From: a virus
Direction: 5' to 3' (one strand)
DNA: 41,812 bases
IMG/VR virus record: IMGVR_UViG_3300035698_003494
Span: 1-41,812 of that record
The translations under genes were made by a program, and so were the position numbers. The notes under the pieces were generated by a model. The model worked only from the letters and a program-made list of their open reading frames with translations. It did no database searches and had not been told where the DNA came from. Of the stretch, positions 1 to 41,812 are shown in pieces; the first letter of the stretch is position 1; each line of letters opens with the position of its first letter.

Positions 1-99
1 TGTAATATTAACAAAGAAGAGAGAGATACTATATCATGATGGTTATAGTCATGAAAGGATAGTGACTAAATATAAGTTAAAAGATACTTCGTATCCTAA
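1..99. repeat. Terminal direct repeat, left copy
   Basis: These 99 bases are identical to the last 99 bases of the window. An exact repeat of this size at both ends is what an assembler leaves when a contig closes on itself, and the gene running off the right end continues in frame here. It is therefore best read as a circular or circularly permuted genome, not as a biological terminal repeat. Confidence 0.9.
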
Positions 100-658
100 T
101 AATGACTGGATAAGGATAGAGATAGTTAATGGTGAAGTAAAGGTAGATGAAGTTAATATACCAAAATGGTATAAGAATAGTCATGAGAAACAATTATTAA
201 CTTTTAGTAAGAATATGCCTTATGATTTACAATTAGAGGCTGTTAAGCAGAATGGTTGTAGTATAATATATATTAAGAATCCTAGTAATAAGATACAATT
301 AATGGCTGTTAAACAGAGTGGTTATAGTATAAGATATATTAAGAATCCAAGTAAAGAGTTACAATTAGAGGCTGTTAAACAATATGGTTATAGTATAAAA
401 TATATTGATAATCCAAGTAAAGAGGTACAATTAGAGGCTGTTAAGCAGAATGGTTATAGTATAGAATATATTAAGAATCCAAGTAATAAGATACAATTAG
501 AGGCTGTTAAACAGGATGGTTATAGTATACGGTATATTAATAATCCAAGTAGTAAGGTACAGTTAGAGGCTGTTAAACAGAATGGTTATAGTATACAGTA
601 TATTAATAATCCAAGTAAAGAAGTGTTAGAATATATTGAAAGAAGAAATAATGTATAA
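1..658 (+). CDS. DUF4116-like repeat protein A (3' part; gene starts at 41697)
   Basis: This is the 3' part of a 224-residue protein whose ATG lies at 41697 and which crosses the contig ends; a GTG at 62 is internal. The N-terminal domain (about 80 residues, starting Met-Cys) contains a KVDE..IPKWY stretch that I recall from other phage proteins of unknown role. It is followed by six tandem 22-residue repeats (bases 230-625) of the form QLEAVKQNGYSIxYIKNPSxxx, which resemble DUF4116 repeats. The paralogue at 2166 is almost identical in the N-terminal domain but has five repeats. I see no signal peptide. Function is unknown; repeat arrays of this kind suggest a protein-binding surface, which is inference. 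Confidence 0.85.
   Translation, partial: VILTKKREILYHDGYSHERIVTKYKLKDTSYPNNDWIRIEIVNGEVKVDEVNIPKWYKNSHEKQLLTFSKNMPYDLQLEAVKQNGCSIIYIKNPSNKIQLMAVKQSGYSIRYIKNPSKELQLEAVKQYGYSIKYIDNPSKEVQLEAVKQNGYSIEYIKNPSNKIQLEAVKQDGYSIRYINNPSSKVQLEAVKQNGYSIQYINNPSKEVLEYIERRNNV
230..625 (+). repeat. Six tandem 66-bp coding repeats
   Basis: Six in-frame units of exactly 66 bp encode 22 residues each. Units differ at a few positions, mainly the residues after NG, SI and NPS. The same unit occurs five times at 2412-2741, so the two arrays give ample homology for slippage or gene conversion. Confidence 0.9.
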
Positions 659-809
659 AATAGAATGTATAGATTCAAATGGTCAAATAGAAACTTTAGA
701 TAAAACCCCCTGCTTAACTCAAGCTAAGAAGTTAAGACAAATATATCTAAGTTTCTTTAGGGATAGGAATGAGAAAGTCACTATTGTAATTAAGGCTACA
801 GGATATTAG
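651..809 (+). CDS. Small hypothetical protein, 52 aa
   Basis: A short ORF starts with ATG eight bases before the end of repeat protein A, with an AGAAG purine stretch upstream, and ends one base before the next start (TAG-T-ATG). The product begins MYKIECIDSNGQIETL and is mixed in charge with no membrane segment. Tight packing between two genes on the same strand is the main support. I do not recognise the family. Confidence 0.6.
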   Translation: MYKIECIDSNGQIETLDKTPCLTQAKKLRQIYLSFFRDRNEKVTIVIKATGY

Positions 810-810
810 T

Positions 811-1227
811 ATGTTAGTTAGTTTCGAGGATTTTATAAGGATACAACATAATTGGGTAAATTATACTGATTGGTTAAGGATGGACCACTTACCCATACAT
901 TTTAAAACGTACTGGATAAATCATTTAGGCAAATATAAATTTAAGAGTTTTGAAGTTATTAAAGAGACTTATTTCAGTAAAGATCAAGAGGCTATTTGTA
1001 GAGCTATTTTAAATGAAGTTGATTATGTAAAAAGTGAGGATATGGTTGAAAGGGTAGTAGAGAAGAAAAAGTATACTCCTATAGATATAGATAAACTAAT
1101 TGCAGAGGATGAAGATTTTGAAAATGAATATGACGAGTGGTTAGATAGTATCGAAGAAGAAGATGATGAGTTTGATGATGAAGATTATTATATAGGAGAG
1201 GGGGTAGAAGAATATGAAGAAGATTAA
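811..1227 (+). CDS. Hypothetical protein with acidic tail, 138 aa
   Basis: The N-terminal half is aromatic-rich (HNWVNYTDWLRM), and the last 40 residues are almost all Asp and Glu with scattered Tyr. Acidic tails occur in phage DNA mimics and in single-strand DNA-binding proteins, but the body shows no OB-fold motif I recognise. It lies in the first part of the early block, where host-takeover proteins are usual. Start and stop fit snugly between neighbours. Function is unknown. Confidence 0.7.
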   Translation: MLVSFEDFIRIQHNWVNYTDWLRMDHLPIHFKTYWINHLGKYKFKSFEVIKETYFSKDQEAICRAILNEVDYVKSEDMVERVVEKKKYTPIDIDKLIAEDEDFENEYDEWLDSIEEEDDEFDDEDYYIGEGVEEYEED

Positions 1228-1387
1228 ATGTGCTGATGATCACAGACATGTAATGGAGTATAAGGTAGCTACAGAAAAAATCAAAGCTGGCTATTACTGT
1301 AATAGTTGTAAGTATATTGAACTAGATGAGGAATTGAGTGATGATTTATTAGAGAGTCAGTTTTCAAGACAAATAAAGGAGCTATAA
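1214..1387 (+). CDS. Small zinc-ribbon-like protein, 57 aa
   Basis: ATG at 1214 overlaps the end of the acidic-tail gene in another frame. The product starts MKKIKCADDHRHVMEYKV and has a later CNSC pair, so Cys6, a His near residue 10 and Cys28/Cys31 could hold one zinc ion. A purine-rich stretch (GTAGAAGAA) precedes the start, and the AAGGAG at its end serves the next gene. It may be a small regulator or RNA/DNA-binding protein; this is inference from the Cys spacing. Confidence 0.6.
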   Translation: MKKIKCADDHRHVMEYKVATEKIKAGYYCNSCKYIELDEELSDDLLESQFSRQIKEL

Positions 1388-1389
1388 AA

Positions 1390-1665
1390 ATGATAATAAA
1401 ATTAGACTTGGAATTAATAGCTGCGAAACTAGAGAAAGTCAGCAAACAAAGAGAAGAATATATTACCTATGATGTCACTATATCTAAACATCCAGGAGCG
1501 GACTGTGTAACTATATTCTATACCTTATACACGTCAAAGACATCCAAACATGAAACTTTTCCAACTTTGTTAGCATTAGATAATAGATTAGATGAATTGA
1601 TAGAGGATAGGAAAGAGGTTATTATTGATGGTGTAGAGTATGTAAAAAAAGAAAGAGAGGTATAA
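1390..1665 (+). CDS. Hypothetical protein, 91 aa
   Basis: ATG is preceded by AAGGAG at good spacing. The product has a helical start (LDLELIAAKLEKVSKQREEYI), a beta-rich middle and a helical end. It ends one base before the next ATG. It has no membrane segment and no recognised motif. It belongs to the early run leading to the primase-helicase, so a replication or takeover role is possible but not shown. Confidence 0.75.
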   Translation: MIIKLDLELIAAKLEKVSKQREEYITYDVTISKHPGADCVTIFYTLYTSKTSKHETFPTLLALDNRLDELIEDRKEVIIDGVEYVKKEREV

Positions 1666-1666
1666 A

Positions 1667-2164
1667 ATGAGTGAATTATTTGAAGCGAGTCAAGAGGTAG
1701 AAATACCACAACAACAACCGACTAAGAACTACTCGGAAAGGGCTAAAGACGCTGGTAAAGCATTAGCAGATTCTAGGGATGCCTTTGAACTGTCACAAGT
1801 ACAAGCTACTTCAGAGGATATAAGAGCATTAGCAATTAGTTTCTTAATAGGACAGAACAAGAGAGAGAATATTAAGGCTATTAGAGAGGATAAGCCAGTA
1901 GCACAAGGACCAAAGAAAGAATATGTTAAACTACCATTCCTTGATATACAAGATGGTGTAGAATATACAGTCAAGATTATATCAGATGATGGGGAATATA
2001 AAACAGAGAGATTCACTACGCATGGTTTTACAGTTGAGATAAAAGGAGAATTAAAGAAACTTAGTACAATGTCTAAAAAACTACTTCATCATTTTGTAGT
2101 AGATGCTGTTGTTACGTTCAGGAGATATAACGAGGATAACTTTACTAAATATGAGGTGAAATAA
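1667..2164 (+). CDS. Hypothetical protein, 165 aa; possible DNA-binding accessory
   Basis: The product has a polar Gln-rich N-terminus (EIPQQQPTKN), a helical region to about residue 75, and a beta-rich C-terminal half starting near VKLPFLDIQDGVEYTVKI. The last part could be an OB-like fold, and the place just ahead of the primase-helicase would suit a single-strand DNA-binding protein, but it lacks the acidic tail expected and I do not recognise a family. Start is ATG after GAGAGG. Ends one base before repeat protein B. Confidence 0.7.
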   Translation: MSELFEASQEVEIPQQQPTKNYSERAKDAGKALADSRDAFELSQVQATSEDIRALAISFLIGQNKRENIKAIREDKPVAQGPKKEYVKLPFLDIQDGVEYTVKIISDDGEYKTERFTTHGFTVEIKGELKKLSTMSKKLLHHFVVDAVVTFRRYNEDNFTKYEVK

Positions 2165-2165
2165 T

Positions 2166-2762
2166 ATGTGTCAGTTTTTAAGTGTAATATTAACAAAAGA
2201 AAGAGAGATACTATATCATGATGGTTATAGTCATGAGAGTATAATAACTACACATAAGTTAAAAGATACTTCGTATCCTAATAATGACTGGATAAGGATA
2301 GAGATAGTTAATGGTGAAGTAAAGGTAGATGAAGTTAATATACCAAAATGGTATAAGAATAGTCATGATAAACAATTATTAACTTTTAGTAAGAATATGC
2401 CTTATGATTTACAATTAATGGCTGTTAGACAGAATGGTTATAGTATACAGTATATTAAGAATCCTAGTAGTAAGGTACAATTAATGGCTGTTAAGCAGAA
2501 TAGTTATAGTATAGAATACATTAAGAATCCAAGTAATAAGATACAATTAATGGCTGTTAAACAGGATGGTTGGAGTATAAGGTTTATTGATAATCCAAGT
2601 AAAGAGGTACAATTAGAGGCTGTTAAGAAATATGGTTATAGTATAGAATATATTAAGAATCCAAGTAATAAGATACAATTAGAGGCTGTTAAGCAGAATA
2701 GTTATAGTATAGAATATATTAAGAATCCAAGTAAAGAAGTGTTAGAATATATTAAGAGGTAG
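2166..2762 (+). CDS. DUF4116-like repeat protein B, 198 aa
   Basis: Paralogue of the gene crossing the contig ends. The first 82 residues differ from copy A at only about a dozen positions, clustered in the first 30, and long stretches are identical at DNA level, which indicates recent duplication or gene conversion. Five 22-residue repeats follow (2412-2741), then LEYIKR and stop. Copy A has six repeats. Both begin Met-Cys-x-Phe-Leu-Ser. A GAGG ribosome site overlaps the end of the previous gene. Function is unknown; no membrane segment or enzyme motif is visible. Confidence 0.85.
   Translation: MCQFLSVILTKEREILYHDGYSHESIITTHKLKDTSYPNNDWIRIEIVNGEVKVDEVNIPKWYKNSHDKQLLTFSKNMPYDLQLMAVRQNGYSIQYIKNPSSKVQLMAVKQNSYSIEYIKNPSNKIQLMAVKQDGWSIRFIDNPSKEVQLEAVKKYGYSIEYIKNPSNKIQLEAVKQNSYSIEYIKNPSKEVLEYIKR
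2412..2741 (+). repeat. Five tandem 66-bp coding repeats
   Basis: Five in-frame 66-bp units, the same family as at 230-625. Unit-to-unit differences give residues such as QNGYSIQY, QNSYSIEY, QDGWSIRF and KYGYSIEY at the variable centre. Confidence 0.9.
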
Positions 2763-2772
2763 AGGAGTTAAA

Positions 2773-4473
2773 ATGTACTCTCAAATATTAAAATTCTTAG
2801 TGGCACATCAAATACCTTATAAAGAAGGTAGTAGTCAATTTATCTTACCATGTCCAAAGTGCGGTCGTGATGAGAAAGTGTATATGGGGAAGAATAATTC
2901 TATGTGGGATTGTAAAGTGTGTGGAGCAAAAGGTGATTTAGTAAAATATCAAAATCTTAACTTCCTATCTGTCCCATCGGATGCACCACAGCAACAACAA
3001 GAAGATGGACCTACCTTTACACTACAAATGGTTAAGGAGTGCCATGAGAATCTTAAAACTAATCAAGAGGTAATTGATTATCTAATGAAGGATAGGAAAC
3101 TAAGTTCAGAAGTAATTAGTAAATGTTTACTAGGTGTGAATGAAAGAGGTCAATTAGTAATACCTCATGTATATAAGGATAAGTTGTATGGTGTTAAATA
3201 TCGTAACTTAGATCCTGAGGCAGAGACAAGATATATCTATGCTAAAGGAAGTAAGTCTATTGCACTTAATCAAGAATATTTAGATACAAAACCAAAGGAG
3301 GTGTTAGTAGTTGAAGGTGAAATAGATTATATGACAGCTTTAACTTATGGAATACAAAATACTGTAGCAGTACCAGGATGTAGTTATCGTGGAGATAGTA
3401 TGAAGTTCATAGAGAAGTTACAAGAAGCTGAGAAAATATATATTTGTTTTGATGCTGGTGAGGATGAATTAACTAAAGGACAAAAGGCAGCTTATGATTT
3501 AGCAAAAAGAATTGGTTTAGATAAGTGTTACAATGTAATACTTCCTGAAAAAGATCTAAATGACTGTCTAAAAAAGGACATACCTATAGAGAATATTAAG
3601 TCCACTATTCTAAATGCAAAGAAGTTTGATATTCCTGAAATTGTAAGAGTTGGTAAATTTAAGAAATTAGTTACTGAAAGACTATTAAACCCTAATAAGT
3701 TATTTGGTTATCCAAGTGGATTTGAACAGTTTGATAAATTAACAGGTGGCTTAGGCGAAGGACAATTAACTATATTGTCTGGACTCACAACTACAGGTAA
3801 GACTACGTGGTCTAACTTTTTAATGTACCACTATGCTCAGCATAAAATACCCGTAGTATATTTTTCTTTAGAGACACCTACACATCAACTTATAGCGAAT
3901 ACGATTAAGTTTCTATTCGGACATGCTGCTGACCAGTTTAATAAAGATAAGATAGAGGAGTATATAGATAGCTTAGATGAGTTACCTATACATTACTATG
4001 ATAGAAGAGCATTGAATAAACCTTTATACGTTTCTTATTTTAAAGAGTTAATTAAGAGTGTAAGGGATAGATATAATGCTAAGTTTATTGTCTTAGATGA
4101 TATGCAGAAACTAATCACTGCGAATAGACATGGTAGTAGAACTATGAGTAACCATGAGTTAATAGATGACCTATGTAGTTCTTTAAAAGATATTGCTATG
4201 GAATATGAAGTACATATAATTGTTATTGCTCACCTTAACAGAACTAATCAAGGAGTTAGACCTACAATGTTTCAATTAAAAGGTGGATCAGGTCAAGAAC
4301 AACAAGCAGACTTTGTTCTACTATTGCATAGGGAGTTAGACTCTCAAGCTGATGAAGAGGTTAAGTCACAAGTAATGTTAGATATAGCTAAGAATAGAAC
4401 TGATGGTGGTGAAGGTACTGGATTGATAACCATGAGGTTTGATAAGAATGTACAGAAATATATAGAGATATGA
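2773..4473 (+). CDS. Bifunctional primase-helicase, T7 gp4-like
   Basis: Makes RNA primers and unwinds DNA at the fork. The order is classic: zinc-binding Cys27/Cys30...Cys47/Cys50, TOPRIM primase core with Glu181 in VVEGE and acidic Asp227 in CFDAGED, then a RecA-like DnaB helicase with Walker A GLTTTGKTT (Lys343), Walker B IVLDD (441-443) and the IVIAHLNR motif near 485. At 566 residues it matches T7 gp4A in length. ATG follows AGAGGAG. The stop overlaps the next start as ATGA, so the following lipoprotein is translationally coupled. It works with the family A polymerase at 7366. Confidence 0.95.
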   Translation: MYSQILKFLVAHQIPYKEGSSQFILPCPKCGRDEKVYMGKNNSMWDCKVCGAKGDLVKYQNLNFLSVPSDAPQQQQEDGPTFTLQMVKECHENLKTNQEVIDYLMKDRKLSSEVISKCLLGVNERGQLVIPHVYKDKLYGVKYRNLDPEAETRYIYAKGSKSIALNQEYLDTKPKEVLVVEGEIDYMTALTYGIQNTVAVPGCSYRGDSMKFIEKLQEAEKIYICFDAGEDELTKGQKAAYDLAKRIGLDKCYNVILPEKDLNDCLKKDIPIENIKSTILNAKKFDIPEIVRVGKFKKLVTERLLNPNKLFGYPSGFEQFDKLTGGLGEGQLTILSGLTTTGKTTWSNFLMYHYAQHKIPVVYFSLETPTHQLIANTIKFLFGHAADQFNKDKIEEYIDSLDELPIHYYDRRALNKPLYVSYFKELIKSVRDRYNAKFIVLDDMQKLITANRHGSRTMSNHELIDDLCSSLKDIAMEYEVHIIVIAHLNRTNQGVRPTMFQLKGGSGQEQQADFVLLLHRELDSQADEEVKSQVMLDIAKNRTDGGEGTGLITMRFDKNVQKYIEI

Positions 4474-5015
4474 GATATCTAATTTATATATTATTAGTCT
4501 TTCTACTCTTTGGATGTAATACAACTAAGTATTATAAGGAAGATATTGAAGCAAGGAAGTTAGAAAGTGTTGTTACTTTTGACCAACTCCAATTTAAGAT
4601 GACTACACCTGAAATGATCTGTTGGACAATGGAGCAAGAGATTAGATATGTAGCAGATACTTCTCCAGAAGATGAATATAGATCACCCGATCAAACATGG
4701 GATTTAAGATATGGAGACTGTGAAGATTTTGCTATATTTAATGCTTACTTTCTTAAGAGGTTGAGTTATGATTACTACCTATTAAATATATCAGCTCCTA
4801 AATATGTTCATGCTATATGTGTTTGGAGAACACCACAAGGTTATAGGTATAGTAGTAATGGTAAGTTAAATAGTGCAGTGTGTCCTTCTTTAGAATACAT
4901 AGCAACTAGGATACACCCTAAGTGGTACGTAGTTAATATATATAAGTTAGAAGATATTGAGTATAATAATGTTAAGTTGAAGCACTATGAATGGATGATA
5001 AGGGAGGTAGAATAA
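4470..5015 (+). CDS. Lipoprotein with transglutaminase-like cysteine protease fold
   Basis: The N-terminus (MRYLIYILLVFLLFGC) is a lipoprotein signal with lipidated Cys16, so the mature protein should be membrane-anchored outside the cytoplasm. The body has the transglutaminase-like core: Cys84 in YGDCEDFA and His114 in KYVHAICVW; the third position after GYRYS is Asn130 or nearby rather than a clear Asp. Start overlaps the helicase stop (ATGA). Phage lipoproteins are often exclusion or host-surface factors, so superinfection exclusion or envelope processing is plausible. The fold call is from motif order; the role is inference. Confidence 0.7.
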   Translation: MRYLIYILLVFLLFGCNTTKYYKEDIEARKLESVVTFDQLQFKMTTPEMICWTMEQEIRYVADTSPEDEYRSPDQTWDLRYGDCEDFAIFNAYFLKRLSYDYYLLNISAPKYVHAICVWRTPQGYRYSSNGKLNSAVCPSLEYIATRIHPKWYVVNIYKLEDIEYNNVKLKHYEWMIREVE

Positions 5016-5740
5016 TGAGTAGAGTATTAGCATTTAGTGACGAACATTTACCAGCTACAATACCAGGTAGAGTAAAATTTTTAAAAGAAATGGAGAAGAG
5101 GTGGAAGTGTGATACTATTGTATGTACAGGTGATTTCTTAGACCTACATGCTATAAGTAGTCATACTACAGAAGCAGATGCTAAGGGGGCTTTAGATGAA
5201 ATGGATGAAGCATTAATAATGGCTAAAGAATATTATAAAGCATTTCCAAAGGTAACTCTTATTCTAGGTAACCATGATTTAAGAATTATGAGGGCTGCAA
5301 ATGAAGCTAAACTACCTAAGAATTGGCTTAGATCTTTTAGAGAAATAATAGGTGCTCCTGAAGGTTGGGATATTAGGACAGAACCAATCATAATTGATAA
5401 TGTTTTATATGATCATGACTTTCAGTGCTCTGGAATGAATGCTCATAGGAGTAGAGCTACTAAAGAAGGTTTAAACGTTGTTGGTGGTCATTTACATGCT
5501 TTTGGTGGTATATCTTTTATCTCGAATAGTCATAGCTTAACCTGGGGAATGAATATAGGTTCTGGAGTTGATGATACAGCTTATCACATGAGATATGGTA
5601 AGAAATTCCCTAATAAAGCAATAGTTGGTGCGGGTATAATTATTGATGGATTCTACCCATACTTTGAACCAATGAATTTAGGAAGTAAAAGAAAGCTAAC
5701 ATTGTCCAGACCTAAATCTAAGAAAAAGAAGGTAAAATAA
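5015..5740 (+). CDS. Calcineurin-like metallophosphoesterase
   Basis: Hydrolyses a phosphate ester with two metal ions. All family motifs are present: Asp9-x-His11 (SDEH), Gly-Asp40 (CTGDFLD), GNHD at 85-88, and GHLH with His159 and His161 near the C-terminal third. ATG at 5015 after GGGAGG is preferred over an in-frame ATG at 4991; it overlaps the lipoprotein stop by one base. Substrate cannot be told: phage members include protein phosphatases, nucleases and phosphodiesterases. Its place just before a glycerophosphodiesterase and a phospholipase suggests, but does not prove, lipid-derived substrates. Confidence 0.9.
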   Translation: MSRVLAFSDEHLPATIPGRVKFLKEMEKRWKCDTIVCTGDFLDLHAISSHTTEADAKGALDEMDEALIMAKEYYKAFPKVTLILGNHDLRIMRAANEAKLPKNWLRSFREIIGAPEGWDIRTEPIIIDNVLYDHDFQCSGMNAHRSRATKEGLNVVGGHLHAFGGISFISNSHSLTWGMNIGSGVDDTAYHMRYGKKFPNKAIVGAGIIIDGFYPYFEPMNLGSKRKLTLSRPKSKKKKVK

Positions 5741-6333
5741 TGTCAACAATTATGGCACATAGATGTTTATTAAATGGTCCTAATAAGGAAGTAGAAAATA
5801 CCTACTATAGTGCTTGGTACTGTAATAAAGTTGGTATAACTGCGATTGAAGTGGATGTTAGACTTCGTAAAGACACAGTAGTTTGTTCTCATGGTGATTA
5901 TCTAAATGGTCCATTGACCAGGCTTGAAACTATAGTTAAGCTATGTAATAAATTTAGATTAAATTTATATATTGATGTCAAAGAGTATGATGCAGGAGTA
6001 AGAGCTAAACAAATTTGCATAGATAATAACTTTTACAATGCTGTCTTTGCATCAAGGGATTATATATTTATTAATAACCAAGTTAATGACCTATTTAAGT
6101 ATGGCGCTATTATAGATAAATTTAGTGACGAATATAGATTCTCAAAATATGATTTTTTAAGCATTAACAGGAAATATTTTACATGGTTTATTGGGCAAAA
6201 GACTTTTAAGAAGATACAAAGTATATGTCCCGTATATGTATGGACAGTGAATAGCAAAAGAGAGATTGAAAAGTTTAAAAAATGGGGTGTAGATGTAATA
6301 ATGACAGACTATGGGGAGAAATACTCATCATGA
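5740..6333 (+). CDS. Glycerophosphodiester phosphodiesterase (GDPD family)
   Basis: Splits glycerophosphodiesters into glycerol 3-phosphate and an alcohol. The diagnostic active-site set is visible: His7-Arg8, Glu37-x-Asp39 in AIEVDVRL, and His51 in VVCSHGD, and the end has the family's WTVN...GVDVIMTDYG. At 197 residues it is somewhat shorter than bacterial GDPDs of about 240. It has no signal peptide, so it would act in the cytoplasm. Start is TAATG-coupled to the metallophosphoesterase; its stop overlaps the patatin start by four bases. Confidence 0.9.
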   Translation: MSTIMAHRCLLNGPNKEVENTYYSAWYCNKVGITAIEVDVRLRKDTVVCSHGDYLNGPLTRLETIVKLCNKFRLNLYIDVKEYDAGVRAKQICIDNNFYNAVFASRDYIFINNQVNDLFKYGAIIDKFSDEYRFSKYDFLSINRKYFTWFIGQKTFKKIQSICPVYVWTVNSKREIEKFKKWGVDVIMTDYGEKYSS

Positions 6334-7130: not shown

Positions 7131-7366
7131 TGAGAAAGCTTCTCTTTATCCTACTACTAGTATCAGTATCATTTGCTTTTATGCTAAGCAAAATAGATAA
7201 CAAAGAATTTAACAACTACAATGTAGATGTGTTTGCAAAGAGATCTTATGGGTTTGATCTAGCTTGGTATGTAGGGACTAAGAAACCTTATCCTATATTA
7301 TACATTTATGTAGGTACACCTGAAGGAAACGTATATAGACTTTATAATGAGGAGTATTTAAAATAA
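7130..7366 (+). CDS. Small exported or membrane-anchored protein, 78 aa
   Basis: MRKLLFILLLVSVSFAFML is a signal peptide or single N-terminal anchor, followed by about 55 polar, Tyr-rich residues. ATG at 7130 shares a base with the patatin stop; a longer start at 7115 is possible. The next gene, DNA polymerase, begins at the last base of its stop codon. No family recognised. It closes the run of envelope-related genes between helicase and polymerase. Confidence 0.65.
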   Translation: MRKLLFILLLVSVSFAFMLSKIDNKEFNNYNVDVFAKRSYGFDLAWYVGTKKPYPILYIYVGTPEGNVYRLYNEEYLK

Positions 7367-9084
7367 TGTTAGAAGTTTTATTTGACAAACCTGGATTTTC
7401 CTTAGATGTAGAAACTACTTCTGAGTCTGGAAAGAAAGATGATAATTTACACTTTAAGAAATGTGAATTGGTTTGTATTGGTTTTGCTTATAAAGAAGAT
7501 GGAGTAGTTAAGTCATTCTGTATGACAGTGGAAGAAATTAATAGAGAGATCAAAGATTTTTCTCAGTTAATGACACAAGAGAGATATAAGATACTTGGCC
7601 ATAATATAAAGTTTGATGCTAAAGTAATATATGGAAAATATGGTATTACTCTTAAAGGTATCTACTTTGATACATGTATTGCAGCTAAACTATTAGATGA
7701 AGAGAAAGGTCATGCTGGATTAAAATATTTAGGTAAAAGACACTTTGATGAAGATTGGGGAGTATGGTTAAACTACAAACAATGGTGTAAGGTGAAGGAG
7801 TTAGACTGGAAAGTAGATGACCATTACCCAGTATATAAGAAAGAACTTATGAAATATTGTGCTAAAGATGCTGAAATTACCTATAAATTAGCTGAGATAT
7901 TTAGACCTAAGTTAGAGAAACAATGCTTACAGAAGTTATTTGAACTTGAGATGGAAGTAGTGAATATATTCTACAAAGCAGAGTTAAATGGTATATCAGT
8001 AGATTTACCTTATTTAAGCAAAATATTACAGAAATGTATACTGAACGTAGGTAAAGTACAAGAAATGGTATACTTAACATGTAAAGAAGAATTTAACATC
8101 AACTCTTCACAACAATTAGGAGAGGTACTATTTAATAAACTAGGATTCAAAGTAGTGGAGAAAACTAAAAAAGGAAAGCCTAGTACCAATGCTAAAACTT
8201 TAAATGTACTAGCTAGGAAACATAAATTTGCTAGGAGAATTTTATTGTATAAGAAATGGGAGATGATAAGGAGACACATAGAGAAGTTAATCACTGAACA
8301 AATTGATGAACGTATCTATCCTACCTTTAATACTATAGGTACTGAGACAGGTAGATTTAGTTGTGAAAAACCTAACCTACAACAAGTACCATCTAAGACC
8401 AGTGCAGGGAGAGCAATAAGAAAAGCATTTACGGGAGATCTAATAGTTGCAGACTATTCAAATATTGAATTAAGAATACTAGCACATTATACTAAAGATC
8501 CTATCTTATGCAAAGTATATGAAGCTGGTGGTACAGGAGACTTACATAAGGTTACTTCTGAAGCTTTAGGAATTTCAAGGAGTCATGCTAAGACTATTAA
8601 CTTTGGTATTTGTTACGGTATGGGACCAATGAAGTTAGCAGATGATTTGAATATCTCACAAGAGTTAGCTAAAGATTATATAAATCAATGGTATAAGAAG
8701 TATGCTTTTGTTCAACCTTGGAAAGATTCAGTTATTAATACAGTTAAGAAACATGGATTTATAAGAAGTTTTGGAGGTAGGAAACGTAGGATTGATTTAA
8801 ACCAAAGTCAAACTACTTGGGCTAGGTTACATAATACTACATTAAAAGAGATGAGAGAAGCTGTAAACTTTGTTATTCAAGGAAGTAGTGCAGATATTAT
8901 TAAAGCTGCAATTGTAGCCTTGAAGGATGAGAAAATCTTACTCCAGGTTCATGATGAGTTAGTAATTGAAAAGGGTAAAAGATCTTTAGAAGAGATTAAA
9001 GAAATTATGGAGAATATAGTGACTCTTAAAGTACCTATTCCAGTAGGTATTATAGAGTGTAGTAATTGGGGAGATGGCAAATAA
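7366..9084 (+). CDS. DNA polymerase family A with 3'-5' exonuclease
   Basis: Replicative polymerase, 572 residues. Exonuclease motifs: Asp14-x-Glu16 (LDVET), Asn80...Asp84 (GHNIKFD), and Tyr164...Asp168 (YCAKD), so proofreading should be active. Polymerase motifs: GTETGRFS, motif A VADYSNIELR with Asp363, motif B R-x-x-x-K409-TINFGICYG with Phe413, and motif C VHDE (528-531). Phe at the motif B position matches E. coli Pol I rather than the Tyr of T7. It lacks a 5'-3' exonuclease domain, as phage enzymes do. Coupled by TAATG to the gene before it. Confidence 0.96.
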   Translation: MLEVLFDKPGFSLDVETTSESGKKDDNLHFKKCELVCIGFAYKEDGVVKSFCMTVEEINREIKDFSQLMTQERYKILGHNIKFDAKVIYGKYGITLKGIYFDTCIAAKLLDEEKGHAGLKYLGKRHFDEDWGVWLNYKQWCKVKELDWKVDDHYPVYKKELMKYCAKDAEITYKLAEIFRPKLEKQCLQKLFELEMEVVNIFYKAELNGISVDLPYLSKILQKCILNVGKVQEMVYLTCKEEFNINSSQQLGEVLFNKLGFKVVEKTKKGKPSTNAKTLNVLARKHKFARRILLYKKWEMIRRHIEKLITEQIDERIYPTFNTIGTETGRFSCEKPNLQQVPSKTSAGRAIRKAFTGDLIVADYSNIELRILAHYTKDPILCKVYEAGGTGDLHKVTSEALGISRSHAKTINFGICYGMGPMKLADDLNISQELAKDYINQWYKKYAFVQPWKDSVINTVKKHGFIRSFGGRKRRIDLNQSQTTWARLHNTTLKEMREAVNFVIQGSSADIIKAAIVALKDEKILLQVHDELVIEKGKRSLEEIKEIMENIVTLKVPIPVGIIECSNWGDGK

Positions 9085-27151: not shown

Positions 27152-27795
27152 TATTCTAGTGAATCTCCTTGTAGTAGTCTTGCATCAGAACCATTCAAAT
27201 GTTTCCTTTGGTCTGCTAACATATCATTTAATCCTTTTTGAAACTTATGTTCCCAACGTCTATACCTTATATTATCATCTCTATCATTATATAAATCAGC
27301 TATTACACCATATTTTATTACTCTTGCATATTCATCATGAAATTCAAAGTAATGACTATCAGCAGTCATAGTTCTATGTTTTCTATAAATATAAGTTGTT
27401 AGAACTTTATTTTGAGCTGGAGTAGGATAGAGGTAAAAAGCATCATCTGTCACTGGTATAAAGTGAGTAGGTGATCCTGTTGCTTGAGTATAATCTGTTA
27501 CTACCTCTTCATATCTTTTTAAGGCCATCTTCTTAAGAGATACTTTTTGTTCTGATTCTTTCATACTTTCTACATTATTTACTTGATAAGCTGTATTAGA
27601 AGATAGTGTATACCTTCTTGTACCAGCTACAGTTGTAAAGTCATATAGATCTCGCATACCTCTCCACGAAGTCTTTGCTTCTAACTCCATAATTCTGTCA
27701 TTAGTGAAGTCATCTATCAGTAACTCTGTATAAGCTGTAGAGTCATCAAAATATCTTTTTACTTGTAGTTTAAATGCGCTAAAATCAATTGCCAT
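27151..27795 (-). CDS. Tail adaptor, T7 gp11-like (tail tubular protein A)
   Basis: 214 residues. The order of a helical N-terminus (LIDDFTNDRIMELEAKTSWRGMRDLYDF), a short beta region with YTLSSNTAYQVNNVESM, and DDAFYLYPTPAQNKVLTTYIYRK followed by a helical EYARVIKYGVIADLYNDRDDN matches portal-nozzle adaptors. It should ring the portal and join it to the nozzle encoded next. Overlaps the glycosyltransferase gene by 11 bases. Confidence 0.8.
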   Translation of the reverse strand: MAIDFSAFKLQVKRYFDDSTAYTELLIDDFTNDRIMELEAKTSWRGMRDLYDFTTVAGTRRYTLSSNTAYQVNNVESMKESEQKVSLKKMALKRYEEVVTDYTQATGSPTHFIPVTDDAFYLYPTPAQNKVLTTYIYRKHRTMTADSHYFEFHDEYARVIKYGVIADLYNDRDDNIRYRRWEHKFQKGLNDMLADQRKHLNGSDARLLQGDSLE

Positions 27796-28903
27796 AACTT
27801 TTCATCCTCCTTGTGTGTTTTATTTGCTCTTTCTTTAGAATTCTAGCATATCTTTCCGCGATTGTCGCTAAACTATAATTAGCTTTTATCTTTTTGTAAG
27901 CTGTATTTCCTACTTGTTTTCTAAGAGTAGCATCTTTAATTAATAGTTCTAAACTTTCAATCCAATCTTCAGTTGTATTACATAAGTAACCATCTTTACC
28001 ATGCTCAATACATTTGTATGGTTCGACATCTGAAGCTACTACTGGTATCTTTAATGCAGATGCTTCTAACCATCTTAAATTACTTTTAGCTCTATTAAAT
28101 AATGTATCTCTGATTGGAGCTAATTCTATATCAAATCCAGCCTTTGCTTTATATTCAGGATACTTATTTACAGGTATCCATCTTTGTATGTGCTCTACTC
28201 TCTTTAAACTTGTTATCTTCTCAGGCAGTTCTCCACCTAAGAATTTAAACCTAACTTTAGGGTACTTCTTATGTATGTACTCTATAGCTGGTATAATTAA
28301 TTCTACATCTTTTAGGTGAGCAGATCCACCTTCCCAGCCAACTGTTATATATGTTTTCTTTATATTATTTTTATACTTGCCCCAAAGTTTTAAATCTACT
28401 CCATTTGGTACAATATGTATATTCTCGTTAAATGGTTTGTATAGGTCTTTTAAATATTTTGTTGATACAATTACTGCATCACTATCTTGTAACTGTGTCT
28501 TAACTACTTTCATCAAATCAGAGTTTGGATCAAAGTAAGAATGGTTAGGATTTGAAGAATCTACACCAAACGCATAATCATCTATCTCAGTTATTACAGG
28601 TTGTTTAAAATGATGAATTAGATCTATTAAAGCTAATCCCCAGCAAGAAGAGAATAGTTGAAAGATGAAAGACTTAACTTTCTTCTTTGTACATAAGAAT
28701 CTAAAATAATTCTCTTTCTCTAACCTATCTTTAGGGTTTGCTATAGTAGCTTCTAATTGATTTACCTCAGCATTAAACTTTGCTGGATTATAATCATTAT
28801 ACCAACATTTAGATAAATCTGCTTTCTCCATTTCTTTAGCAAAACCTATCATTCTATAATATGCACTCGACTGTGTCTGAGTGTAACCCCAATATACTTT
28901 CAT
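27785..28903 (-). CDS. GT4-like glycosyltransferase in the structural operon
   Basis: 372 residues of GT-B fold: VYWGYTQTQSSAYYRM, IVPNGVDLKLWGKY, YITVGWEGGSAHLKDVELI, and the donor site LAPIRDTLFNRAKSNLRWLEASALKIPVVASDVEPY ending in a typical C-terminal helix. It lies between a lectin-like tail/fibre gene and the adaptor, co-transcribed with virion genes and apart from the main sugar cassette. A virion protein could be its acceptor. ATG after AGGAGG. Cytoplasmic. Confidence 0.87.
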   Translation of the reverse strand: MKVYWGYTQTQSSAYYRMIGFAKEMEKADLSKCWYNDYNPAKFNAEVNQLEATIANPKDRLEKENYFRFLCTKKKVKSFIFQLFSSCWGLALIDLIHHFKQPVITEIDDYAFGVDSSNPNHSYFDPNSDLMKVVKTQLQDSDAVIVSTKYLKDLYKPFNENIHIVPNGVDLKLWGKYKNNIKKTYITVGWEGGSAHLKDVELIIPAIEYIHKKYPKVRFKFLGGELPEKITSLKRVEHIQRWIPVNKYPEYKAKAGFDIELAPIRDTLFNRAKSNLRWLEASALKIPVVASDVEPYKCIEHGKDGYLCNTTEDWIESLELLIKDATLRKQVGNTAYKKIKANYSLATIAERYARILKKEQIKHTRRMKSYGN

Positions 28904-30208: not shown

Positions 30209-30618
30209 TATGATCTTTCCTTTATAATTTTTCTCCAACTCTCAGTATTGTTGGGTAAACTTCTTACTCTACATGCTTCCTCTAACCAATGGTTTGCAAA
30301 TTCTTGCTTATTAACATCTTGCATTATAAAATCACTCCCAAGCATCCACTTATTCATCTGTTTAGATAGATTCATTACAATCTTATCTAGATTCTCTTGT
30401 GTTCTTGGTAACTGACTAATCTCTAAAGCTTTGACTACATAATTTTCTAAAGTTCCTGATGCCATTTCTTTACAGCTTAATTCAGGAATTTCATTCATCT
30501 CAAATCCATCTTGTGCTGGACCTGAGGATAACTTAGTATTCTCTCTATTTAGTAATGTTGAGTTTACTTCCTCTGGTCTATTACCAGGTTCAGAAACTAT
30601 GCTTGCTTCATCTGACAT
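30208..30618 (-). CDS. Hypothetical structural-operon protein, 136 aa
   Basis: A polar, disordered first third (SEPGNRPEEVNSTLLNRENTKLSS) is followed by a helical domain (LENYVVKALEISQLPRTQENLDKIVMNLSKQMNKWMLGSDFI). It overlaps the epimerase end by 22 bases and couples to the lectin-type gene. It may be an assembly or chaperone factor for the neighbouring fibre gene, by position only. Confidence 0.6.
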   Translation of the reverse strand: MSDEASIVSEPGNRPEEVNSTLLNRENTKLSSGPAQDGFEMNEIPELSCKEMASGTLENYVVKALEISQLPRTQENLDKIVMNLSKQMNKWMLGSDFIMQDVNKQEFANHWLEEACRVRSLPNNTESWRKIIKERS

Positions 30619-31529
30619 TTATACCACCTCACATATTTTTCTAAATCTCTATCAAAATCAGTTGTAGGTTTAAATCCATACTTACCTACTTTAGTAATAT
30701 CTGTACATAATCTTTGCACTTCTCCAGCCCTAGGTTGTACATATCTAATCCCTGAAGTAGATCCTGTAATCTCTATAATCTTTTCTGCTATATATTTAAT
30801 AGCCTGAGTCTCTCCTGTACCAAAGTTATAGACTCCTGCTGGAAGTTCTGTCATAGCAAAACTATAAGCTTGAATAATATCATCTATATACATATAGTCT
30901 CGTTTTTGTTCACCTGAACCATAAATATGAAGTGGTGCATTATTTAAAGCAGCTTTTGTAAATCTAGCAATCACTGATCCATAACTACCATCATTTTGAG
31001 ATGGTCCAAAAGCATTAAAGTTACGTACTATAATAATATCCATTCCATGAGTATCTACATAAGATTTCGCTAACCTATCAGCAGCCACTTTACTTGCACC
31101 ATAAGGTGACTGGCAGTCTAAAGGATGTTCTTCATTCATATATTCTTGTTGGGAACTTCCATAAACTTCTGAGGTTGAAGCAACTATACATTTAATCTTA
31201 TGCTTTCTACATTGTTCTAATATATTTAAAGTACCACTAACATTTATATCGAGTGTCTCTTGAGGATACTTAATAGAGTAATCGACATGAATTTGAGCAG
31301 CTAAGTGTATTACTAAATCTATAGGGTTCTTCTTAGGAACACTAAAAACTTTATGTAACCACTTCTTATCTCTAATATCTTTATTATAGATGCAATGAGG
31401 ATAATCAATCTTATTACTACATGAATGAAAATCATTATCCATTCCTGTAACTATATGACCTTGATCCCACAAATGATTTGCTAGGTGTGATCCCATAAAT
31501 CCTTTAATCCCAGTTATAAATACATGCAT
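30597..31529 (-). CDS. Extended SDR nucleotide-sugar epimerase/dehydratase
   Basis: 310 residues, a NAD-dependent sugar nucleotide enzyme: TGIKGFMGSHL for the cofactor, VIHLAAQIHVDYS, the STSEVYG strand, catalytic Tyr/Lys in SPYGASK, and RNFNAFGPSQ for the substrate site. STSEVYG with SPYGASK is close to UDP-sugar 4-epimerases and 4,6-dehydratases; which one cannot be told. A keto-sugar from a dehydratase is what the DegT aminotransferase at 14198 needs. It sits directly after the capsid gene in the late operon. ATG after AGGAG. Confidence 0.9.
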   Translation of the reverse strand: MHVFITGIKGFMGSHLANHLWDQGHIVTGMDNDFHSCSNKIDYPHCIYNKDIRDKKWLHKVFSVPKKNPIDLVIHLAAQIHVDYSIKYPQETLDINVSGTLNILEQCRKHKIKCIVASTSEVYGSSQQEYMNEEHPLDCQSPYGASKVAADRLAKSYVDTHGMDIIIVRNFNAFGPSQNDGSYGSVIARFTKAALNNAPLHIYGSGEQKRDYMYIDDIIQAYSFAMTELPAGVYNFGTGETQAIKYIAEKIIEITGSTSGIRYVQPRAGEVQRLCTDITKVGKYGFKPTTDFDRDLEKYVRWYKCQMKQA

Positions 31530-41696: not shown

Positions 41697-41812
41697 ATGT
41701 GTAGTTTTTTAAGTGTAATATTAACAAAGAAGAGAGAGATACTATATCATGATGGTTATAGTCATGAAAGGATAGTGACTAAATATAAGTTAAAAGATAC
41801 TTCGTATCCTAA
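41697..41812 (+). CDS. DUF4116-like repeat protein A (5' part, continues at base 1)
   Basis: ATG at 41697 after AAAGGAG gives MCSFLSVILTKKREILYHDGYSHERIVTKYKLKDTSYP, aligning with the start of repeat protein B at 2166 and continuing in frame at position 1 after the duplicated 99 bases. Only the first 17 bases (41697-41713) are not repeated at the left end. The complete gene encodes 224 residues. Confidence 0.85.
   Translation, partial: MCSFLSVILTKKREILYHDGYSHERIVTKYKLKDTSYP
41714..41812. repeat. Terminal direct repeat, right copy
   Basis: Exact copy of bases 1-99. Remove one copy to obtain the circular molecule of 41,713 bp. Confidence 0.9.

Follow-up and report, generated by a model that had tools for sequence, protein, structure and literature searches.

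Known DUF4116 proteins and comparable repeat proteins

The DUF4116 repeat family (Pfam PF13475; PHROGs 5925, 17056 and 25923) occurs in phages and giant viruses, has no known function and is named by just two papers in the open literature searched, yet it makes up multi-copy gene families in both groups of virus. For instance, the jumbo phages Salicola phage SCTP-2 and Agrobacterium phage Atu_ph07, along with giant viruses, have DUF4116 at several genomic places or in several proteins. The locus described here lies in IMG/VR virus record IMGVR_UViG_3300035698_003494, the whole of which (41,812 bases, 33% G+C) is referred to as the window. Its twin genes share with these families the DUF4116 repeat, its conserved residues and the alpha-solenoid predicted for it, but encode in addition a 79-aa N-terminal domain without a match in Pfam or PHROGs and, in contrast to the jumbo phages and giant viruses, number just two in a phage of 41.7 kb.

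Solenoids of the armadillo/HEAT type, such as designed armadillo proteins and importin alpha, stack helices into a surface that binds peptides or proteins, and are a likely analogy for how the twin gene products may work. The armadillo repeat is, however, a three-helix unit of about 42 residues, whereas the unit here is a two-helix one of 22 residues; with structural alignment scores of at most Z 5.9, no membership is claimed. The poxvirus ankyrin and F-box/ankyrin families are expanded sets of repeat-containing binding proteins that are constant at one end, and in this resemble the twin genes, although the repeat differs and bacterial hosts have no ubiquitin system. DUF4116 repeats, and the fact that phages have them, were on record already; what is new is the small two-copy example from a phage, the unmatched N-terminal domain and the strain comparisons exposing array turnover. 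The two-copy version is also of a handy size for expression, pull-down and structural work.

Anatomy and genomic context of the twin genes

The ends of the contig overlap by exactly 99 bases (41714-41812 being identical to 1-99), and this circular closure falls within gene 1, which therefore spans the contig join (41697-41812 plus 100-658; 224 aa). Its 5' part on the plus strand (41697-41812, codons 1-38) has an ATGTGT start preceded by AAAGGAG and resumes at window position 100; the rest (within 1-658) comprises the remainder of the N-terminal domain followed by six complete repeats of 22 residues, encoded by 66-bp units without indels at 229-624. Gene 2, on the same strand at 2166-2762 (198 aa), consists of the same N-terminal domain (79 aa, 2166-2402) and five complete repeats (2403-2732). 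Tandem Repeats Finder scored the two arrays at 565 and 433, both with a period of 66. A preliminary description of the window had placed two near-identical genes at these positions, with six and five DUF4116-like repeats respectively, and both statements were borne out.

The plus strand also carries replication genes, namely a primase-helicase (2773-4473) and a family A DNA polymerase (7366-9084), whilst the terminase, portal and major head protein genes are on the minus strand. The position of the twin genes beside the replication genes weakly suggests early expression, and is the basis for the early block to which the preliminary description had assigned them. Promoter-like matches in window positions 1-3000 numbered 26, against 16.0 (sd 4.3) in shuffles, and are not specific enough for a promoter to be located; no terminator-like sites were found in the same interval. 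A megablast search of the first 25 kb of the window against 50,697 phage records retrieved no nucleotide relatives, nor were relatives of the primase-helicase found in IMG/VR, although records very close to this one may have been excluded from the searches.

This context bears on the possibility that the products are anti-defence or host-takeover proteins that block one specific host protein, the two copies acting against two variants of the target. Within the non-structural arm the twin genes are neighbours of the primase-helicase, and duplication with differing arrays, as seen here, is common for arms-race genes. Nothing observed points specifically to host defence, which the preliminary description had suggested as a target alongside host machinery. 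The twin genes match no known anti-defence family, however, and PADLOC returned a single match of 23 residues only, to which no weight is given, so that we regard so specific a role as unlikely.

Several neighbouring genes were recorded in the course of annotation. Immediately 3' of the primase-helicase is a gene for a small lipoprotein-like product showing a weak transglutaminase-like match (4470-5015, plus strand), and a match to the glycerophosphodiester phosphodiesterase family was obtained at 5740-6333 (plus strand), its best stretch lying at the C-terminus of that profile. Amid the structural genes, the minus strand encodes a glycosyltransferase and a nucleotide-sugar epimerase (27785-28903 and 30597-31529), which perhaps decorate virion or host sugars.

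Family, predicted fold and variable positions of the repeat

Assignment of the repeats to Pfam DUF4116 was clear for gene 1 (E=9.5e-25, 86.3 bits) and gene 2 (E=3.3e-17, 62.2 bits), the whole-protein scores being above the curated cut-off of 24.9 bits. AlphaFold predicted the repeats as an alpha-solenoid with pLDDT of about 97-98, each unit being a 10-residue helix followed by a 6-residue helix; the structure prediction proposed in the preliminary description thus gave the helical solenoid expected of DUF4116. A published trRosetta model of DUF4116 is likewise an alpha-solenoid (PMC8078820).

No solved DUF4116 structure was found, a sequence search of the PDB gave no credible relative, and Foldseek against the PDB returned nothing under an E-value of 0.001. 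VIA-align retrieved peptide-binding solenoids of the armadillo type as structural neighbours (Z up to 5.9, rmsd 6.3 over 130 residues), a likeness of the predicted model that may be no more than a common arrangement. Identity with the armadillo repeat was rejected on the length of the units and of their helices.

Among the 11 repeats of the two genes, codons 2, 4, 5, 11, 12, 15, 17 and 19 are invariant even for synonymous change. Variation is concentrated at codons 3, 8, 13, 16 and 20-22, with slight change at 6, 7, 9, 10 and 14, which agrees with the earlier statement that the repeats vary at a few fixed positions. Codon 13 is the extreme case, with seven codons and five residues. Judged by residue type and secondary structure, the conserved L2, A4, V5, I12, I15 and P18 would form the solenoid core, and the changeable residues 3, 8, 13, 16 and 20-22 probably lie, for the most part, outside it. 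The variability profile agrees with that of 401 repeats from 70 arrays of other virus contigs (Spearman 0.72).

It had further been proposed that the arrays could vary quickly as a binding surface, with a test for positive selection at the variable positions as a check. The predicted solenoid and the location of the changing positions outside the conserved core are in keeping with such a surface. In the test for selection, pN/pS of the whole unit was about 0.57 among the phage's own 11 repeats and 0.53 in the 401 family repeats, and neither set gave evidence of net positive selection across the unit. As overall pN/pS is below 1, drift of a tolerant surface accounts for much of the variation. 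In its full form, this would be a neutral turnover: the arrays would serve as tolerant spacers or scaffolds, their repeat number would change by unequal crossing-over without any selected consequence, and the surface residues would drift. The pN/pS values of about 0.5-0.6, here and in the family, and the frequent synonymous change in DUF4116 (pS 0.42) agree with this explanation. On the other hand, pN exceeds pS only at unit positions 10, 11 and 13 of the 401 family repeats, a pattern more focused than plain relaxation though not proof of selection, and the widespread occurrence of multi-copy DUF4116 genes suggests use. We therefore consider neutrality of the arrays as a whole fairly improbable. 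A further candidate, that the repeats are the target of a diversity-generating retroelement, was rejected because a reverse transcriptase is absent (no PF00078 match in the record).

The N-terminal domain

The N-terminal domain was predicted by AlphaFold as a beta-rich fold at low confidence (beta-beta-alpha-beta-beta-helix in gene 2), with a pLDDT of 60 at best when modelled alone, and no family was assigned. Neither tblastn against phage records nor scans of sequence collections gave credible homologues. Comparison with the N-terminal domains of DUF4116 proteins at two other viral loci, L008 and L015 (which start MCKFFSFI), yielded an hhalign E-value of 0.0079 yet a probability of 5%, and in an HMM search the same pairing (E=0.87) was no better than unrelated matches.

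Divergence of the two copies

The N-terminal domain is identical between genes 1 and 2 at 224/237 bases, and the first 84 codons at 239/252. Of the 13 differences in these 252 bp, 12 fall within the first 88 bp and are followed by 115 identical bases (2254-2368 of the window in gene 2, plus strand; positions 89-203 of gene 1), the boundary at 88 bp having been picked post hoc with the data already seen. This is the long identical N-terminal DNA to which the preliminary description had drawn attention. The run is longer than expected by chance (permutation p=0.003), and could reflect recombination or strong constraint; since its length exceeds chance, the twin copies have probably recombined with each other. 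By direct comparison, the in-register repeats have diverged more than the N-terminal domain (31/264 against 13/237 differences, p=0.017), and in the best alignment of the arrays the extra unit is repeat 5 of gene 1.

That one of the copies, or the difference between the arrays, is an artefact of repeats collapsed or duplicated in short-read assembly is very improbable. It is true that the contig ends fall within gene 1, that arrays of this kind also run off the end of several related contigs, and that the 115-bp tract common to both copies exceeds the 99-base end overlap, which is possibly the assembler's k-mer; for the last of these reasons, the pairing of each 5' end with its array is uncertain from short reads. 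Nevertheless, the flanking genes differ between the copies, many diagnostic differences are present and the longest exact repeat inside an array is no more than 34 bp, which together argue against a simple artefact. Genes 1 and 2 are paralogues, most plausibly of a phage accessory protein.

Turnover of arrays and genes between near-identical strains

Because the searches brought up no near relative of the phage, turnover was examined in other DUF4116 phages, where changes in arrays and in whole genes were observed. Loci L020 (contig 3300048042_000010) and L026 (contig 3300048041_000008) have zero differences over the 3,093 bp upstream of the array, but L020 has 8 repeats and L026 has 7, one 66-bp unit having been lost amid about 20 substitutions within the array. 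Repeats 4 and 6 of L026 carry the same new Tyr-to-Asp allele, and 97/537 of the 21-mers in its array region are absent from L020, although L026 is cut off inside the array and a chimeric assembly could account for some of the divergence. A strain pair differing in the array alone points to quick change.

In a second case, G023 and G040 (loci L080 and L081) are 99.96% identical across 8,361 bp, one DUF4116 gene included, whilst a second DUF4116 gene of six repeats is present in G023 and missing from G040, with which G041 is consistent. The variable gene sits between duplicated flanks, which are 84% alike in L042; in G040, the flank matches its counterpart at 94.6% identity. A duplicated small ORF (MPEVTLAKMAVGNPLRW...) at 4700-5041 and 6570-6962 of L080 brackets the gene absent from G040 and is a probable recombination site. 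An inversion between L042 and L066 was only apparent, and in reality reflects divergent paralogues and one absent gene. The near-identical pairs L023/L024 and L066/L067 have unchanged arrays, hence array turnover is not universal. By analogy with the two cases of change, one of repeat number and one of whole-gene gain or loss, the proposal that the layout in the window lets arrays grow, shrink and exchange is supported, and similar turnover would be expected in this phage.

On balance, we favour the explanation that the twin genes encode a duplicated, recombination-shaped DUF4116 solenoid with a fixed N-terminal domain that binds a host or phage protein, and consider it moderately probable. 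In each product, DUF4116 helical hairpins of 22 residues would be stacked behind the small fixed domain as a predicted alpha-solenoid scaffold, most likely binding its partner protein. Homologous recombination between the DNA repeats would alter repeat number, swap units from one copy to the other, and cause entire genes to be duplicated or lost. The outcome would be several binders per phage with one constant end, whose binding the variation of the arrays may retune.

DUF4116 loci in other viruses

DUF4116 arrays were present in 64 IMG/VR loci, and at 25/57 non-redundant loci at least two DUF4116-like open frames were counted in a span of a few kilobases, the counts of frames and repeats per locus being approximate because they are based on regular expressions. 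L032 encoded four adjacent genes with N-terminal domains identical at 56-58 of 61 positions and 7, 4, 10 and 7 repeats by this count, followed by a fifth DUF4116 copy, whilst the two genes of L055 had N-terminal parts identical at 173/207 positions and 12 and 9 repeats. Multi-copy loci such as these indicate that the two-gene layout of the window is typical of the DUF4116 family at large. Several distinct N-terminal parts were found joined to DUF4116 arrays, and among the structural matches from giant viruses are proteins named as F-box or protein kinase domain proteins, as would be expected of a binding module.

It is tempting to extend this to a widespread, recombination-driven repertoire of phage binders, with a constant N-terminus, strain-level retuning of arrays through gained, lost or swapped repeats, several genes per genome and use in an arms race with hosts, although we put this forward tentatively, as a doubtful generalization. 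If true, the DUF4116 repertoire would amount to a modular library of binders carried by viruses.

Virus contigs L026, L031, L044, L053 and L070 terminate within DUF4116 arrays, from which it appears that DUF4116 genes are probably under-assembled in metagenomes. Between the DUF4116 paralogues of one virus lies a 315-aa gene without a Pfam family (L084, 4310-5257). Finally, a protein encoded at 2077-4527 of L034 combines a transglycosylase SLT domain with DUF4116 repeats.
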